A stretch of DNA of 32,142 nucleotides from Sunxiuqinia sp. (GTDB lineage: Bacteria; Bacteroidota; Bacteroidia; Bacteroidales; Prolixibacteraceae): NCBI GenBank assembly GCA_003246935.1, contig QKCF01000474.1, positions 1-32,142 on the forward strand. Direction: 5' to 3'. Under the pieces are notes generated by a model, which was given only the letters and a program-made list of their open reading frames with translations, did no database searches and had not been told where the DNA came from. Of the stretch, positions 2,346 through 22,438 are shown in pieces; the stretch's first letter is position 1; the number at the start of each line of letters is the position of its first letter. The position numbers and the translations under genes are program-made.

Positions 2346-2434
2346 AAAAAAGGATGACCACTGCCATCCTTTTCTCAAACTAACCAAAATCTATCTTTAT
2401 GAAAAAAATCTACTTTTTACTTTCTCTTTTTGTA
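2346..2434 (-). ncRNA. Putative small RNA, copy A of a three-member family
   Basis: Minus-strand -7 box TATCTTTG (2447-2440); intrinsic terminator GGATGGCAGTGGTCATCC + TTTTTT (2369-2346); core similar to two other loci at 19013 and 19175. The 5' end is estimated from the -7 box. Confidence 0.7.
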
Positions 2435-2439
2435 TGAAC

Positions 2440-2484
2440 CAAAGATAGCCCTCTTTAGTGTTAACACCTGCCAAACACTGTTAA
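2440..2484 (-). promoter_or_regulatory. Promoter/operator of sRNA copy A
   Basis: Minus strand: TTAAC-N14-GTTAAC-N12-TATCTTTG. The same spacing is found at the other two copies. Confidence 0.65.
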
Positions 2485-2791: not shown

Positions 2792-4969
2792 TTACTCTTC
2801 CACAAAGTAGCGCAATTGATCGAGCATAATGGGAACATCGTCGTGATCGATACCCTGTTGCAACAATTGCGGTAAGTCTTCTGCAAATACGTTCATAAAC
2901 TCAGCCTCAGTGAAACCTTCCTTCGAGATGGACTTCATATAATAATCCAATGCAGCTTTGCGGTTGCCCAAGCTCCATTGCACGTGCCCCATATTCATCA
3001 GGTCGTGCTGATTGGGCTGATCATCCATCAACATTTGAAAATACTTTTCAGCCTGTTCCTTTTTGCCGGTCAGGAACGAACACCAGCCAATCGGGCGCCA
3101 TACTTTTTTGCTGCCCGGTTTCAGGTATTCCACTTTAAAATAATATTGCAAGGCCTCCTCGTAACGCCCCAGCTCGAGCAAACAATGTCCTGTATTCAAA
3201 TGATTGGATAAATCGTCGTGGTTCAACGCCTCAACAGCCTTGTAATATTCCAGTGCTTTCAGCGGTTGCTTCAGGTTACGATAGCACAAGGCAATCTTTT
3301 TGAGATTCCACACCCGATTCAGGTCGAACAATTCAGCCTTTTGGTACGCATCCAGCGCTTTTTCGTAGTCGCCCATTTTCTGATGGCTAAAGGCCAACTT
3401 CTGATATAATTCGCCATCCTGTGCATCGGCTAACAGGTATTCATAAATTTCGACAGCCTCTTCGAAATGATTCTTTGTGAAATAGTATTCACCAATATTC
3501 CGAACGATCGCCCGATCCTCTTTCAATATAGCCCCCAACGTTAACTTATTATGGAAGTCGAAACGCCAGCTAAACAAATCTTCAAAGTCGTGACGACGCG
3601 GGTGCAGCTTAAAAAAACGGTACAAATCCTGAATATACTGGTTTGAAATGAAACCCGCTTTCCGCCCCGGGTTACTCAACGCCTCATCCTCCTCAATTTC
3701 GTGAAACTGATCCAATTCCGACTGCAAGCCCTGAAACATAAATTCGCGATTTTGCTTCGGAATTTGCTGCATACTCAGGCTAAACGAATATTTATCGGAG
3801 TTACACAACAGCGGTGCCTGTGCCATCACCTCCACAAAACGCCGAGTTAGGTCGTCGGAAAGATCGAGGACTTTATCCAAATCCGGATTTTCTGAGAAAA
3901 AAGGCATAAACCAATTCGAGATCTCATGGAAAAACACAAAAGACTTTAACATCGCAAATGAGCCCATAAAAACATCGGCCCCTTCCATCTGCAGCTCCGA
4001 AAATTCCTGCATTTTATCCATTAGCTGTGGCGATTCTTCAATCATTTCCTGCCATTCCGGATTCTTATCTTCAGCAATCCCCTCTTCCATCAAGCTATCG
4101 AGCTCAATTTTATCCTTCAGGTTTGCACTTATTTTAATCATCTCCGGCATAATCTCATCGCGGATCCGTTGTTGCAGCTTCTCAGTTTCCTTGGCGCGAA
4201 TCAACTGGATAATTACCCGCTCCAGATTGTGTTTAAACTCAGGATCGTCGTTCAGCAGTTTCAACCGCCCCGTAATACCGCCATAATAAGGCATGCGCGA
4301 ATCGTATTGATACAAGCTAATCAACAAGCCCACCAATGCCCGTTGCTTGATTGCTGACTCATCGGCTTCATAGGCATCAAACAGCAAGGTGAATTTCTGC
4401 TCATCGAAATAGCGCTGCAAGCTCAATGTCACGGCTGTAACGATAAATGATTTGTAGGCCGATATAATGGTTGGGCTGGCCAGGAACTTCCTAAGAAACC
4501 GAAGTCCTTCTCCGCTCAAACGATCCTGAAACCATAGGTGATAAAACAAGCGATGTATCTGACGATGATTTTCGGATGCCGCTGCAGGATTCTCAGCTTC
4601 TGCTTCAAATCGGCTCAGGAACGCATCAAAATCGGTTATGAACTTCTCCATAAAGTTTCGCTTCTTTTCGTACTCCACCGACGAAGCATATTTCAAGCGT
4701 AATGCTTCATAAACTTTATCAGCCAGCTCGTAGGTCGAATCGATCAACTTGCGGTAAACTTTCTGCCGCTCAGGATCCTGAATACCCTCCAGAGTGTACT
4801 GCAACATGTAATGGTAGGTCTGGTTCAGATCCCGCCATTCATCATGAAAAAGCCCCAGCCCGTTATCGGTGATCAGCGTTTCAAGCTGATCAAAAGCAGG
4901 CTTCATGCGTCGCTTCGCCAAATGATTGCAGATTGCTTTATATTGTCTCTTGATTTCCTTGTTCTCCAT
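2792..4969 (-). CDS. Tetratricopeptide repeat protein
   Basis: C-terminal TPR-like repeats (e.g. GELYQKLAFSHQKMGDYEKALDAYQKAELFD; SNHLNTGHCLLELGRYEEALQYYFKVEYLKP). Likely start MENKEIKRQYKAIC at 4969. Confidence 0.85.
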   Translation of the reverse strand: MENKEIKRQYKAICNHLAKRRMKPAFDQLETLITDNGLGLFHDEWRDLNQTYHYMLQYTLEGIQDPERQKVYRKLIDSTYELADKVYEALRLKYASSVEYEKKRNFMEKFITDFDAFLSRFEAEAENPAAASENHRQIHRLFYHLWFQDRLSGEGLRFLRKFLASPTIISAYKSFIVTAVTLSLQRYFDEQKFTLLFDAYEADESAIKQRALVGLLISLYQYDSRMPYYGGITGRLKLLNDDPEFKHNLERVIIQLIRAKETEKLQQRIRDEIMPEMIKISANLKDKIELDSLMEEGIAEDKNPEWQEMIEESPQLMDKMQEFSELQMEGADVFMGSFAMLKSFVFFHEISNWFMPFFSENPDLDKVLDLSDDLTRRFVEVMAQAPLLCNSDKYSFSLSMQQIPKQNREFMFQGLQSELDQFHEIEEDEALSNPGRKAGFISNQYIQDLYRFFKLHPRRHDFEDLFSWRFDFHNKLTLGAILKEDRAIVRNIGEYYFTKNHFEEAVEIYEYLLADAQDGELYQKLAFSHQKMGDYEKALDAYQKAELFDLNRVWNLKKIALCYRNLKQPLKALEYYKAVEALNHDDLSNHLNTGHCLLELGRYEEALQYYFKVEYLKPGSKKVWRPIGWCSFLTGKKEQAEKYFQMLMDDQPNQHDLMNMGHVQWSLGNRKAALDYYMKSISKEGFTEAEFMNVFAEDLPQLLQQGIDHDDVPIMLDQLRYFVEE

Positions 4970-16030: not shown

Positions 16031-16060
16031 ACACCAAAATTGGTGTCTATTTTTCTTTTT
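16027..16060. terminator. Intrinsic terminator between Hpt gene and clpB (convergent)
   Basis: ATAGACACCAA-AA-TTGGTGTCTAT followed by TTTTCTTTTT. The hairpin includes the Hpt gene stop codon. Confidence 0.85.
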
Positions 16061-18642
16061 ATGCTTTTCTAAATACCAGCTCTTCGTTCTGCAGATCGAT
16101 CAGAATCTCCTGATCAGCAGAAACCTGCCCTGACAAGATTTCTTTCGACAGCTCATTCAACACAAACTTTTGCAACAACCGGTTAACCGGACGAGCACCA
16201 AATTGCGGATCATAACCTAAAGTCGCCAACCACTGTACGGCAGCATCCGAAATCTGAATCCGAATATTTTGGTTGCCCAAACGTTTAATAATCCGGCTGA
16301 ACTGAATCCGAACAATCTTTTTCATATCCTCACGACCTAGTGGCGTAAACATAATGGTCTCATCAATCCTGTTCAGAAATTCCGGACGAATTGTCTTGCG
16401 TAACAAATTCATGACCTGTGCCCGGGTTTGCTCAAACACTTCATCCTTGTTGGTCTCATTCATTCTTTCAAAACCTTCCTGAATCAAATGTGATCCTAGA
16501 TTTGAAGTCATGATAATGATTGTGTTCTTAAAGTTAACAACCCGCCCTTTGTTATCGGTCAATCGACCATCATCCAACACCTGCAAAAGAACATTGAACA
16601 CATCCGGGTGTGCCTTCTCAATTTCATCGAAAAGCACTACAGAATAAGGTTTACGCCTTACAGCCTCCGTCAGCTGACCTCCTTCGTCGTAGCCCACATA
16701 TCCCGGAGGAGATCCAATCAAACGAGTAACCGAGAATTTTTCCTGATATTCCGACATATCAATCCGGGTCATCATATTCTCGTCACAAATACTCTGCTAA
16801 TGCTTTTGCCAATTCCGTTTTACCAACTCCGGTTGTCCCCAGGAAGATAAACGATCCGATTGGTCGTTTTTCATCCTGCAAACCGGCGCGGCTTCTCCTT
16901 ACCGCATCAGCAACTGCTCTAATCGCCTCATCCTGCCCTACTACCCTATTGTGCAACTCTTCTTCCAAATGAAGCAGCTTTTCACGCTCGCTTTGCAGCA
17001 TTTTACTAACCGGAATTCCGGTCCAGCGAGCCACAACTTCAGCGATATCTTCCGAATCTACTTCCTCCTTAATCAATGACTCACCTTGAATCTCCTGCAA
17101 TTCTTTCTGCAAACGTTCAATCTCAGCTTCCGCTTCTTTTATTTTTCCGTAACGGATTTCAGCTACCTTGCCGTAATCACCCAAACGTTCCGCCTGTTCC
17201 GCCTCAAATTTGAAGTTTTCAATATCTGTTTTATTTTGTTGGATACCTTCGATGACCGATTTCTCCATCTCCCATTGAGCGCGGTAACGTGACTGCTCTT
17301 CTTTTAAATTAGCAATCTCCTCGTTTAGCGAAGCAAGTTTTACTTCATCCTTTTCCCGTTTGATCGCTTCTCGCTCAATTTCGAGTTGCTTGATTTTGCG
17401 TTCAATCTCATCCAACTCTTCAGGAACAGAGTCCATTTCCAAACGCAACTTTGCAGCCGCTTCATCCATCAAGTCGATTGCCTTATCGGGCAAGAACCGA
17501 TCAGAAATGTAACGTTGCGACAACTCAACAGCCGCAATAATGGCATTATCCTTAATCCGAACTTTGTGGTGCGACTCGTAACGTTCTTTCAATCCACGTA
17601 AAATTGAAATCGCACTCAGCGTATCGGGCTCATTAACCATTACAATCTGAAAACGACGCTCCAAGGCTTTATCTTTTTCAAAATATTTTTGGTATTCGTC
17701 CAAAGTCGTAGCACCAATGGCACGCAACTCACCACGAGCCAGAGCTGGTTTCAGAATATTGGCAGCATCCATTGCCCCCTCGCCTTTCCCTGCACCAACC
17801 AAGGTATGAATCTCATCAATAAATAAGATAACCTCACCTTCCGCTTTGATCACTTCATTGACGACTGCTTTTAACCGTTCCTCGAACTCACCTTTGTATT
17901 TTGCGCCCGCAATTAACGCACCCATGTCGAGTGAAAAAAGCTGCTTCGACTTCAAATTTTCAGGCACGTCGCCACGAACAATCCTATGGGCCAAACCTTC
18001 GGCAATAGCTGTTTTACCGGTACCTGGCTCCCCAATCAGGACAGGATTGTTTTTTGTCCTTCTCGAAAGAATTTGCAATACCCGACGGATCTCCTCATCA
18101 CGACCAATAACAGGATCCAATTTCCCATTACGAGCCTGTTCATTCAGATTGATGGCAAACCGGCTCAATGAATTAAATTGATCTTCGGCCGTTTGGCTTT
18201 CAACTTTTGCACCTTTCCGCAACTCGGTAACAGCAGCCTCCAAGTCTTTTCTGTTAATCCCATTATCTTTCAAAAGACTGGAAATAGTATCTCCGCTCTC
18301 CAATAATCCCATCAGAATATGCTCAACCGACACAAACTGATCACCCATTTTGCGGGACAGATCTAATGATTTCTGCAAAGCCTTGTTAGCTTCAGATGAC
18401 AAATATTGTTCGCCACCACTAACCTTAGGATAGCCATCTACAATACGATCCAGTGCTTGTTGAAACACCGGCATATTAACACCCAGCTTTTTCAATAAAA
18501 AGCCGGTAACATTTTCAGCTGCATGAAGCAAACCTTTCAAAATGTGGCCGGTATCTACAGCTTGTTGTTGCTTTGCCTGCGCTACTTCGAAAGCGTGCTG
18601 CAAAGCTTCCTGCGATTTAATTGTGAAATTATTAAAATTCAT
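16059..18642 (-). pseudogene. clpB: ATP-dependent chaperone ClpB, split by a frame-disrupting deletion in the D2 AAA+ domain
   Basis: ORF 18642-16783 ends ...[21 protein letters not shown] 16775-16059 begins MMTRIDMSEYQEKFSVTRLIGSPPGYVGYDEGGQLTEAVRRKPYSV. Together they cover full-length ClpB. Junction is TAT TTG TGA CGA GAA TAT GAT GAC. Confidence 0.85.
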
Positions 18643-19012: not shown

Positions 19013-19092
19013 AAAAAGGACGGTGTCCCGTCCTTTTGTAAACTAATCAAACTATTCTATGAAAAAAAATCCTTAATTACTGTGCTAATGTG
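19013..19092 (-). ncRNA. Putative small RNA, copy B of a three-member family
   Basis: Minus-strand -7 box TACTTTTG (19105-19098); terminator GGACGGGACACCGTCC + TTTTT (19033-19013); shared core CATAGAATAGTTTGATTAGTTTACAAAAGGA. Confidence 0.65.
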
Positions 19093-19097
19093 TACTC

Positions 19098-19142
19098 CAA
19101 AAGTACAGAGAAGTTCCGTTAACGACTGACAAGAAATGTTAA
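19098..19142 (-). promoter_or_regulatory. Promoter/operator of sRNA copy B
   Basis: TTAAC-N14-GTTAAC-N12-TACTTTTG on the minus strand; same spacing as copies A and C. Confidence 0.62.
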
Positions 19143-19174: not shown

Positions 19175-19261
19175 AAAAAAGGATGGTAACACCATCCTTT
19201 TTTAAACTTAACCAAACCTATCTCTATGAAAATTCTATGCTTACTATCTTGCTCTTTTGTA
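19175..19261 (-). ncRNA. Putative small RNA, copy C of a three-member family
   Basis: Minus-strand -7 box TATCTTTG (19274-19267); terminator GGATGGTGTTACCATCC + TTTTTT (19197-19175); core CATAGAGATAGGTTTGGTTAAGTTTAAAAAAGGA. Confidence 0.7.
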
Positions 19262-19266
19262 CAAAA

Positions 19267-19322
19267 CAAAGATAGACTGCAATTCAGTTAACAGATGACA
19301 AGCAACGTTAATAAACGTTAAC
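19267..19322 (-). promoter_or_regulatory. Promoter/operator of sRNA copy C, with a third GTTAAC box
   Basis: TTAAC-N14-GTTAAC-N12-TATCTTTG on the minus strand. On the + strand GTTAA occurs at 19287, 19307 and 19317. Confidence 0.65.
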
Positions 19323-19729: not shown

Positions 19730-22438
19730 ATGGCAAAATACGTTTATACATTTGGGAACGGAAAAGCCGAAGGGAAGGCAGATATGAAGAACCTGCTGGG
19801 TGGTAAAGGAGCAAATTTAGCTGAAATGAACTTAATCGGAGTTCCGGTGCCACCAGGCTTTACTATCACAACTGAAGTTTGCACACTTTACAATCAGCAA
19901 GGCAAAGACGCGGCAGTCGCGGCAATTAAACCAGAGGTTGAAAAAGCAGTAGCGCTAATCGAAGAACTAACAGCAACTAAATTTGGCGACAAAGACAATC
20001 CTTGCCTCGTTTCGGTACGCTCCGGAGCACGAGTGTCAATGCCGGGAATGATGGACACTGTATTAAACCTGGGATTGAACGATTCTGCAGTACAGGGAAT
20101 CTCTAAAAAATCGGGCAACGAACGATTTGCATGGGACTCTTACCGTCGCTTTGTGCAAATGTACGGCGATGTTGTATTAGGTATGAAACCTGAAAGCAAA
20201 GAAGATATAGATCCTTTTGAAGCTATCATGGAAAACGTGAAGGAAGAAAAAGGAATTGAACTGGATACAGACTTCTCTACCGATGATCTGAAAAGACTGG
20301 TTTCTGAATTTAAAGAAGCCGTTCTGAAAGTTACCGGCAAAAGCTTCCCCGACGATCCTTGGGAACAATTATGGGGAGCAATCTATGCTGTATTCGACAG
20401 CTGGATGAACGAGCGCGCCATTTATTACCGCAAGCTTAATGCAATCCCGGCTGAATGGGGAACAGCAGTAAACGTGCAGGCAATGGTGTTTGGAAATATG
20501 GGTGGATCATCGGCAACTGGTGTGGCTTTTACGCGGGACGCTGCAACAGGTGAAGATATTTTCAACGGAGAATATTTAATTAATGCACAAGGTGAAGATG
20601 TTGTGGCCGGTATCCGTACGCCTCAACAAATTACACTTGAAGGCAGTAAGCGCTGGGCAGAATTAGCTGGCATAGATGAAGAACTACGTAAATCACACTT
20701 CCCCTCACTTGAAGAAACAATGCCCGCGCTTTATGCTGAACTCAACGCTGTTCAGGAAAAACTGGAGAGCCACTATAAAGACATGCAAGACCTTGAATTT
20801 ACCATTCAGGAAGGTAAGCTATGGCTGCTTCAAACACGCAACGGTAAACGAACCGGTGCTGCAATGGTGCGAATTGCCGTTGAAATGCTTGAACAAGGAG
20901 TTATCGATAAAAAAACGGCATTGCAGCGCATTGAGCCCAACAAGCTGGACGAATTGCTCCACCCGATATTCGACCCTGAAGCATTGAAAAAAGCTAATAT
21001 ATTGGCAAAAGGACTTCCTGCTTCTCCTGGCGCAGCAACAGGTCAGATTGTATTCTTTGCCGACGAAGCAAATAAATTCGAATCATCTGTTTTGGTGCGT
21101 ATCGAAACCTCCCCGGAAGATCTGGAAGGTATGAACATCGCCAGAGGTATCTTAACTGCCCGCGGAGGTATGACATCGCATGCTGCAGTAGTTGCCCGCG
21201 GAATGGGCAAATGCTGTGTTTCCGGTGCCGGCACTGTCCGAATCGATTACAGGGCAAGAACGATGACTGTTGGTAGTGTCGTTTTAAAAGAAGGAGACTG
21301 GATTTCTCTTAACGGCTCTACCGGTGAAGTTTGTGAAGGAAAAGTAAAAACACGGAACCCGGACTTAGGTGGGGATTTTGGCAAAGTCATGGAACTGGCC
21401 GATGAGTTTACAAGAATGTCCGTTCGCACCAATGCAGACACTCCCCACGACGCTCAGGTTGCCCGCAACTTTGGGGCAAAAGGTATCGGACTTTGCCGTA
21501 CCGAGCATATGTTTTTCGAAGGTGAACGCATCAAAGCAATGCGCGAAATGATCCTGTCAAACACCATTGCCGAGCGAGAAAAAGCACTGGCAAAACTGCT
21601 GCCATATCAACGAAGTGACTTTGAAGGAATTTTTCAAGCAATGGCCGGCTACGGTGTTACGGTTCGTTTACTCGATCCACCGTTGCACGAGTTCGTTCCT
21701 CACAACAAGGCAGCACAAGAAGACTTAGCTAAAGAAATGGGGATTTCCTTGAACCAGCTTCTTTCTAAAATTGAAGATCTAGAAGAATTTAACCCGATGT
21801 TGGGCCATCGCGGTTGCCGTTTGGGAATTACCTATCCCGAAATTACAGCAATGCAGGCACGCGCCATCATTGAGGCTGCTTTAAACCTGAAAGCCAAAGG
21901 AATTGACGCTAAACCTGAAATCATGGTTCCACTTGTTGGTACTATTGCCGAATTGAAAAACCAGTCAGCAGTTATTCGTGAGACTGCAGAGCAAGTTTTT
22001 GAAGAAAAAGGTGACCGAATTGATTTCATGCTTGGAACAATGATCGAAATACCAAGAGCTGCTCTTACAGCTGATTTAGTTGCGGAAGAAGCAGAATTCT
22101 TCTCATTTGGAACAAATGACTTAACCCAGATGACCTTTGGTTATTCGCGTGACGACGCTGGCAAATTTATGCCTGACTATCTGGCGAAAAACATCCTAAA
22201 AAACGATCCGTTCCAGGTGCTTGACCAAACAGGTGTAGGCCAACTGGTTAAAATGGGAGTTGAAAAAGGTCGCTCAACCAAACCCAAATTGAAAGTTGGG
22301 ATATGCGGCGAACACGGCGGCGAACCCAGTTCGGTTATGTTCTGCGACAGTGTTGGTTTAGATTATGTGAGCTGTTCTCCTTACCGGGTACCAATTGCCC
22401 GCGTTGCAGCAGCATTAGCAAACATCTCTAAAAGTTGA
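19730..22438 (+). CDS. ppdK: Pyruvate, phosphate dikinase
   Basis: 902 aa; LLGGKGANLAEMNLIGVPVPPGFTITTEVC; GGMTSHAAVVARGMGKCCVSGAG; GLCRTEHMFF; CGEHGGEPSSVMFC. Confidence 0.97.
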   Translation: MAKYVYTFGNGKAEGKADMKNLLGGKGANLAEMNLIGVPVPPGFTITTEVCTLYNQQGKDAAVAAIKPEVEKAVALIEELTATKFGDKDNPCLVSVRSGARVSMPGMMDTVLNLGLNDSAVQGISKKSGNERFAWDSYRRFVQMYGDVVLGMKPESKEDIDPFEAIMENVKEEKGIELDTDFSTDDLKRLVSEFKEAVLKVTGKSFPDDPWEQLWGAIYAVFDSWMNERAIYYRKLNAIPAEWGTAVNVQAMVFGNMGGSSATGVAFTRDAATGEDIFNGEYLINAQGEDVVAGIRTPQQITLEGSKRWAELAGIDEELRKSHFPSLEETMPALYAELNAVQEKLESHYKDMQDLEFTIQEGKLWLLQTRNGKRTGAAMVRIAVEMLEQGVIDKKTALQRIEPNKLDELLHPIFDPEALKKANILAKGLPASPGAATGQIVFFADEANKFESSVLVRIETSPEDLEGMNIARGILTARGGMTSHAAVVARGMGKCCVSGAGTVRIDYRARTMTVGSVVLKEGDWISLNGSTGEVCEGKVKTRNPDLGGDFGKVMELADEFTRMSVRTNADTPHDAQVARNFGAKGIGLCRTEHMFFEGERIKAMREMILSNTIAEREKALAKLLPYQRSDFEGIFQAMAGYGVTVRLLDPPLHEFVPHNKAAQEDLAKEMGISLNQLLSKIEDLEEFNPMLGHRGCRLGITYPEITAMQARAIIEAALNLKAKGIDAKPEIMVPLVGTIAELKNQSAVIRETAEQVFEEKGDRIDFMLGTMIEIPRAALTADLVAEEAEFFSFGTNDLTQMTFGYSRDDAGKFMPDYLAKNILKNDPFQVLDQTGVGQLVKMGVEKGRSTKPKLKVGICGEHGGEPSSVMFCDSVGLDYVSCSPYRVPIARVAAALANISKS

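Follow-up and report, generated by a model that had tools for sequence, protein, structure and literature searches.

Three loci, termed A, B and C, in the window (the whole analysed stretch of 32,142 nucleotides from Sunxiuqinia sp., Prolixibacteraceae, part of a 4-Mb MAG) are probably copies of a multicopy family of trans-acting small RNAs (sRNAs) that is related to FopS and whose seed blocks susC starts. In the first-pass annotation, trans-repression of susC mRNAs by pairing across the start codon had been proposed. This proposal is supported by in silico complementarity, which backs the predicted pairing step; transcription of the RNAs, pairing inside the cell, repression of susC and the part of an RRM protein, be it as helper or antagonist, are inferred.

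All three copies have the same layout on the minus strand: TTAAC repeats, a -7 box of the type TAnnTTTG, the core and, directly behind it, an intrinsic terminator (Table 1). Transcription start sites (TSS) were estimated as lying 7 nt downstream of the -7 box, and the leader ahead of the seed, counted from these estimated sites, is approximately 20-30 nt long. The terminator folds well, and its stem contains compensatory changes (among the paralogues, both sides are altered at 3 of its 10 pairs). As had been described, the cores are antisense to a sequence resembling a 5' UTR followed by an ATGAAAA start, and all three strings were found exactly. Their likeness to a poly-A start context held for A, B and most paralogues; copy C, which is the copy inside positions 19175-19261 treated in the first-pass annotation, matches less far, its core being ATGAAAATTCT. 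No Rfam family matched the window.

Table 1. Predicted sRNA copies and neighbouring genes in the window.
Feature	Position	Strand	Remarks
Copy A, predicted transcript (~88 nt)	2346-2433	-	Covariance models; TSS estimated
Copy A, intrinsic terminator	2346-2373	-	
Copy A, seed	2376-2411	-	
Copy A, promoter	2440-2484	-	-7 box TATCTTTG at 2440-2447; TTAAC at 2460-2464 and 2480-2484
clpB	16059-18642	-	Left neighbour of conserved sRNA locus; two ORFs here
Copy B, predicted transcript (~79 nt)	19013-19091	-	Covariance models; TSS estimated
Copy B, intrinsic terminator	19013-19037	-	
Copy B, seed	19039-19072	-	
Copy B, promoter	19098-19142	-	-7 box TACTTTTG at 19098-19105; TTAAC at 19118-19122 and 19138-19142
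Copy C, predicted transcript (~86 nt)	19175-19260	-	Covariance models; TSS estimated
Copy C, intrinsic terminator	19175-19201	-	
Copy C, seed	19203-19236	-	Antisense to start region of the type CTTAACCAAACCTATCTCT-ATGAAAATTCT
Copy C, -7 box	19267-19274	-	TATCTTTG
Copy C, TTAAC repeats	19287-19321	-	19287-19291, 19307-19311 and 19317-19321; 20 and 10 bp apart
ppdK (pyruvate phosphate dikinase)	19730-22438	+	Right neighbour of conserved sRNA locus

A covariance model was built from A, B and C (model R1) and run against the genome. At E<0.01 it yielded 11 copies, i.e. the three copies of the window and eight further ones (two each on contigs C342 and C45, one each on C245, C449, C42 and C47). Because of these eight further copies, A, B and C were regarded as more than a chance resemblance. 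From the 11 copies, a second covariance model comprising seed and terminator, with the promoter left out, was generated (model R2). It recovered all 11 and a twelfth copy with its own -7 box at C187:961-1051, which is its sole independent find, the other 11 being its training set. The seed is of the type CATAGAGATAGGTTTTGGTTAG in most copies, CATAGAATAGTTTGATTAG in B, and CATAAGTTTAGG in C47 and in the copy at C45:9155; a 5'-proximal seed was found only in the class formed by C47 and C187. On the minus strand of contig C454 (L160; positions 3488-3638 and 3707-3852), two tandem, mutually similar and terminator-ended units with TTTTTTTCATACATACACAGAG were noticed. They scored E 0.15-0.24 against model R1 and are perhaps a further divergent sRNA pair.

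Complementarity to translation starts was analysed with 43 susC genes, identified using TIGR04056, against a background of 762 genes from the same genome. The latter were taken from a home-made ORF list for about 1.0 Mb, or one quarter of the genome, with the first in-frame ATG as start codon. Complementarity was enriched at susC starts in comparison with the other genes and with shuffled sRNAs, as had been anticipated in the first-pass annotation; the lack of enrichment named there as refuting was not seen. An uninterrupted helix of at least 13 bp running through the AUG was formed with any of 8 copies by 23/43 susC genes versus 26/762 others. Duplex energies at susC, computed irrespective of target structure, were better for A, B, C and three paralogues than for 50 of 50 dinucleotide shuffles (z -3.8 to -6.9). 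The p-values given here serve as guides and overstate the significance, since susC paralogues are related and A-rich at their start and thus not independent.

The same comparison bears on the reading that these RNAs act as repressors of any mRNA starting with ATGAAAAA, a start shared by many secreted and outer-membrane proteins, with susC merely the largest class. Signal-peptide genes did score slightly above other genes (AUC ~0.57), some secreted non-SusC proteins also matched well, and several lipoproteins and outer-membrane proteins were among the best non-susC matches. However, susC ranked above signal-peptide genes (AUC 0.65-0.77) and also above genes matched for ATGAAAAA: helices of at least 11 bp were found for copy B in 20/20 susC versus 15/46 such genes (p=8e-8) and for copy A in 18/20 versus 11/46 (p=6e-7), and helices of at least 9 bp for copy C in 18/20 versus 9/46 (p=9e-8). 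Copy C paired most weakly with susC and reached 11 bp at only 1 of the 43 starts. When only UTR and AUG were considered, susC still exceeded other genes (p=0.03 for A, 0.001 for B, 2e-5 for C and 6e-7 for the C47 copy), and this UTR-only signal was absent from signal-peptide genes in general. A general action on ATGAAAAA starts is therefore considered somewhat unlikely. With the full-length antisense as target pattern, the search of the genome returned the sRNA genes, and no other gene was matched.

Within susC, predicted targets tended to be more frequent among STN-type SusC than among other SusC (20/27 versus 7/16, p=0.06), a trend in which three misses probably reflect a mis-chosen start, as seen afterwards. 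The best predicted targets are likewise dominated, as a trend, by STN-domain SusC. In SusC genes with an N-terminal STN domain (transducer type; L004, L007, L010 and L019), AAACTT or AAATTT tends to precede ATGAAAAAAA.

The distribution of the family was determined with model R2. At E<=0.001, matches were obtained in 58/61 genomes and in 23/23 genera of the Prolixibacteraceae, with 10-15 copies per genome in three sister species of the same genus and 1-7 in the rest of the family. One sister species carries a tandem array of about nine copies within 2 kb. Within the Bacteroidales, 92/248 genomes gave a match at E<=0.01, and many of these matches consist of TTTTTTCATAGTTAAGGTTTAGGTTAA plus a terminator; at E<=0.001, 37 genomes of the order outside the family (~15%, counted from our table) were positive. 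Outside the order, 8/199 genomes of a phylum-wide sample had a match, one each, which is a background of approximately 4%.

Loci were compared by searching the flanks of the matches in relatives with the proteins of the window; for the arrays of the sister species, flanks of up to about 1.5 kb were used. Copies B and C are located between clpB and ppdK. Relatives from four other genera carry these sRNAs between the same two genes (L210, L214, L215, L217, L219, L220 and L227), and in at least three more the sRNA is flanked by ppdK (L218, L221 and L229). In several genera, RNAs of the C47 type adjoin homologues of a single protein that has no Pfam match (L144:13487-14239). On contig C45 (L179, 9155-12122), two sRNA copies lie on either side of one outer-membrane beta-barrel gene (PF14905); a homologue of this gene also adjoins the tandemly arrayed copies in a sister species (L209). 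The clpB gene of the window consists of ORFs 16783-18642 and 16059-16775, as if frameshifted near 16776-16783; this split may come from faulty sequencing or assembly of the MAG.

FopS has been described as a family of the Bacteroidaceae. In Bacteroides thetaiotaomicron its members are 14 paralogous sRNAs, roughly 65-70 nt in length, which have their seed at the 5' end and canonical sigmaABfr promoters; 12-15 copies per genome are published for Bacteroides (PMC11697453). The site on susC to which these RNAs bind surrounds the start codon, and translation is repressed; RbpB, which binds the RNAs via the U-rich seed region, counteracts this (PMC11697453). Six named genomes were obtained through a search with a B. 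thetaiotaomicron SusC peptide, B. thetaiotaomicron not being among them. FopS-type RNAs were found by model R2 in five of the six, with marginal E-values for single copies: roughly 10 copies per genome in Bacteroides cellulosilyticus, B. stercorirosoris and B. caecigallinarum, and small numbers in Parabacteroides faecis and Dysgonomonas. Most of the Bacteroides RNAs are GCACTGTGTTTTTCATAGTATTAGATTTAAGGTTAACAAAGGTTGGAGTACAGCGGTACTCCTTTTTTT or nearly so and are 69 nt long. When a model made from them (model R3) was run on 31 genomes of the genus, each gave 3-16 copies, and most of the larger ones gave 10-16. Since these numbers are in line with the published ones, and the length, promoter and 5' position of the seed agree with the published description, the Bacteroides RNAs are almost certainly FopS.

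The first-pass annotation had suggested a divergent FopS-like family. The multicopy nature, the sequence relation and the antisense seed were borne out, and the RNAs of the source genome and the FopS-type RNAs of the named Bacteroides find each other reciprocally with models R2 and R3; seed position, length and promoter differ. Shared with FopS of B. thetaiotaomicron (PMC11697453) are multiple short sRNA copies, the TAnnTTTG -7 box, the intrinsic terminator and the U-rich seed antisense to the susC mRNA start region, the last being seen here in silico. In FopS the seed is at the 5' end, whereas in A, B and C it follows the leader (only the C47/C187 class resembles FopS in this respect), and the predicted transcripts of 79-88 nt are longer than those of FopS. 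Tandem arrays, the conserved clpB-ppdK locus and a seed fitted to the susC starts of the own lineage also distinguish the source family from FopS. Because the 5' seed, the canonical promoter and the FopS length are not found in A, B and C, the copies were not filed as FopS proper, and FopS-related is the safer term. GibS of B. thetaiotaomicron (PMC7366714, PMC11697453) shares the idea of a seed of the type called R1 there and pairing at translation starts, but is one sRNA with a second seed (R2 of GibS), a non-canonical promoter (PM2) and other targets, and was set apart by description. As far as the literature searched shows, the family is new outside the Bacteroidaceae.

The promoter of FopS combines a TTTG at -33 with TAnnTTTG at -7; in the source family the -7 box is kept, and TTAAC repeats stand in the place of the -33 box. 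In 28/30 promoters of the family, TTAAC precedes the -7 box by exactly 17 bp and again by 37 bp (own genome: 8-9 of 9), often with a third repeat at 47 bp, compared to 0/20 FopS-type promoters. Conversely, TTTG with a spacer of 19-20 nt occurred in about 15/20 FopS-type promoters and was essentially absent from those of the source family. In about 1 Mb of the genome, a sample that includes the sRNA contigs by design, 9 of 11 occurrences of TTAAC-N15-TTAAC were sRNA promoters. These repeats may be an activator site that takes the place of the -33 box. Their spacing is similar to that of LytTR-type direct repeats, a similarity that is no more than a lead. A TTAAC-N15-TTAAC site, TAACAAGTCGTTAACAAATGTTTGGCGCAATTAAC, was also observed upstream of a gene for a 365-aa secreted protein on contig C449 (L172), where its distance from the TAnnTTTG box differs from that in the sRNA promoters.

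That promoters are completely different, and that the similarity is concentrated in a seed which is itself constrained by the start codon, would fit a convergent likeness to FopS, with antisense-to-start-codon sRNAs having evolved independently in both lineages. Against this, model R3 placed all 11 copies within the top 12 matches of 976 kb of the source genome (E 0.0004-0.45), and intermediate sequences (TTTTTTCATAGTTAAGGTTTAGGTTAA and similar ones) are present in other families of the Bacteroidales. Convergence is thus judged unlikely, and a relation to FopS is the preferred reading.

A link to an RbpB-type protein had also been suggested, and RRM proteins are indeed encoded in the genome (four matches, three of them intact short RRM proteins). 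One of them may take part in regulation by the family. The U-rich core could even be mainly a binding site through which the RNAs titrate such a protein, with complementarity to susC being secondary; the binding of RbpB to this region of FopS and its antagonism of repression (PMC11697453), as well as the multicopy tandem arrays, would suit such a sponge. Protein binding alone, however, does not predict the lineage-specific match between seeds and susC starts that was seen in a swap test. FopS-type RNA gave z -8.1 on susC of B. cellulosilyticus and z -2.2 on susC of the source genome, and in the reverse direction the RNAs of the source genome scored better on their own susC. The RNAs of each lineage match their own susC starts best, and a primary role as sponge appears improbable.

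It is very improbable that the plus strand is the functional one, whether as decayed or tiny genes or as duplicated start regions. In favour of it, the plus strand of A reads MKKIYFLLSLFV followed by a stop, much as a signal peptide would over its first 12 codons, and a short T-run accompanies the terminator hairpin on either strand. Against it, the plus-strand frame of B has 5 codons, the longer T-run as well as the conserved TTAAC/TAnnTTTG promoter indicate the minus strand, and the pattern is kept throughout the family.

In the preferred reading of a FopS-related, trans-acting family, each RNA would consist of a leader of 20-30 nt, a U-rich seed free of structure (in the typical case UUUUUUUUCAUA and then a stretch complementary to the UTR) and an intrinsic terminator. 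On many susC mRNAs the seed would pair with the end of the 5' UTR and across the start codon, and ribosome binding would be blocked. Different seeds (CAUAGAGAUAGG, CAUAGAAUAG and CAUAAGUUUAGG) would serve different susC variants, and an RRM protein could modulate repression. More tentatively, and with rather less than even confidence, a family-wide regulon can be envisaged: an activator bound to the TTAAC repeats, which are phased at 10/20 bp and stand in for the -33 box, would switch on about a dozen sRNAs together, partly from tandem arrays; these would jointly shut down many susC genes, preferentially of the STN-domain type, and the seeds would co-evolve with the susC starts of each lineage across the Bacteroidales.

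If this is right, control of glycan uptake by families of antisense-to-start-codon sRNAs would be widespread in the Bacteroidales, with seeds matched to each lineage. The joint silencing of dozens of polysaccharide utilization loci could then be studied in the Prolixibacteraceae as an independent system, whose promoter is different and appears to be a dedicated one.
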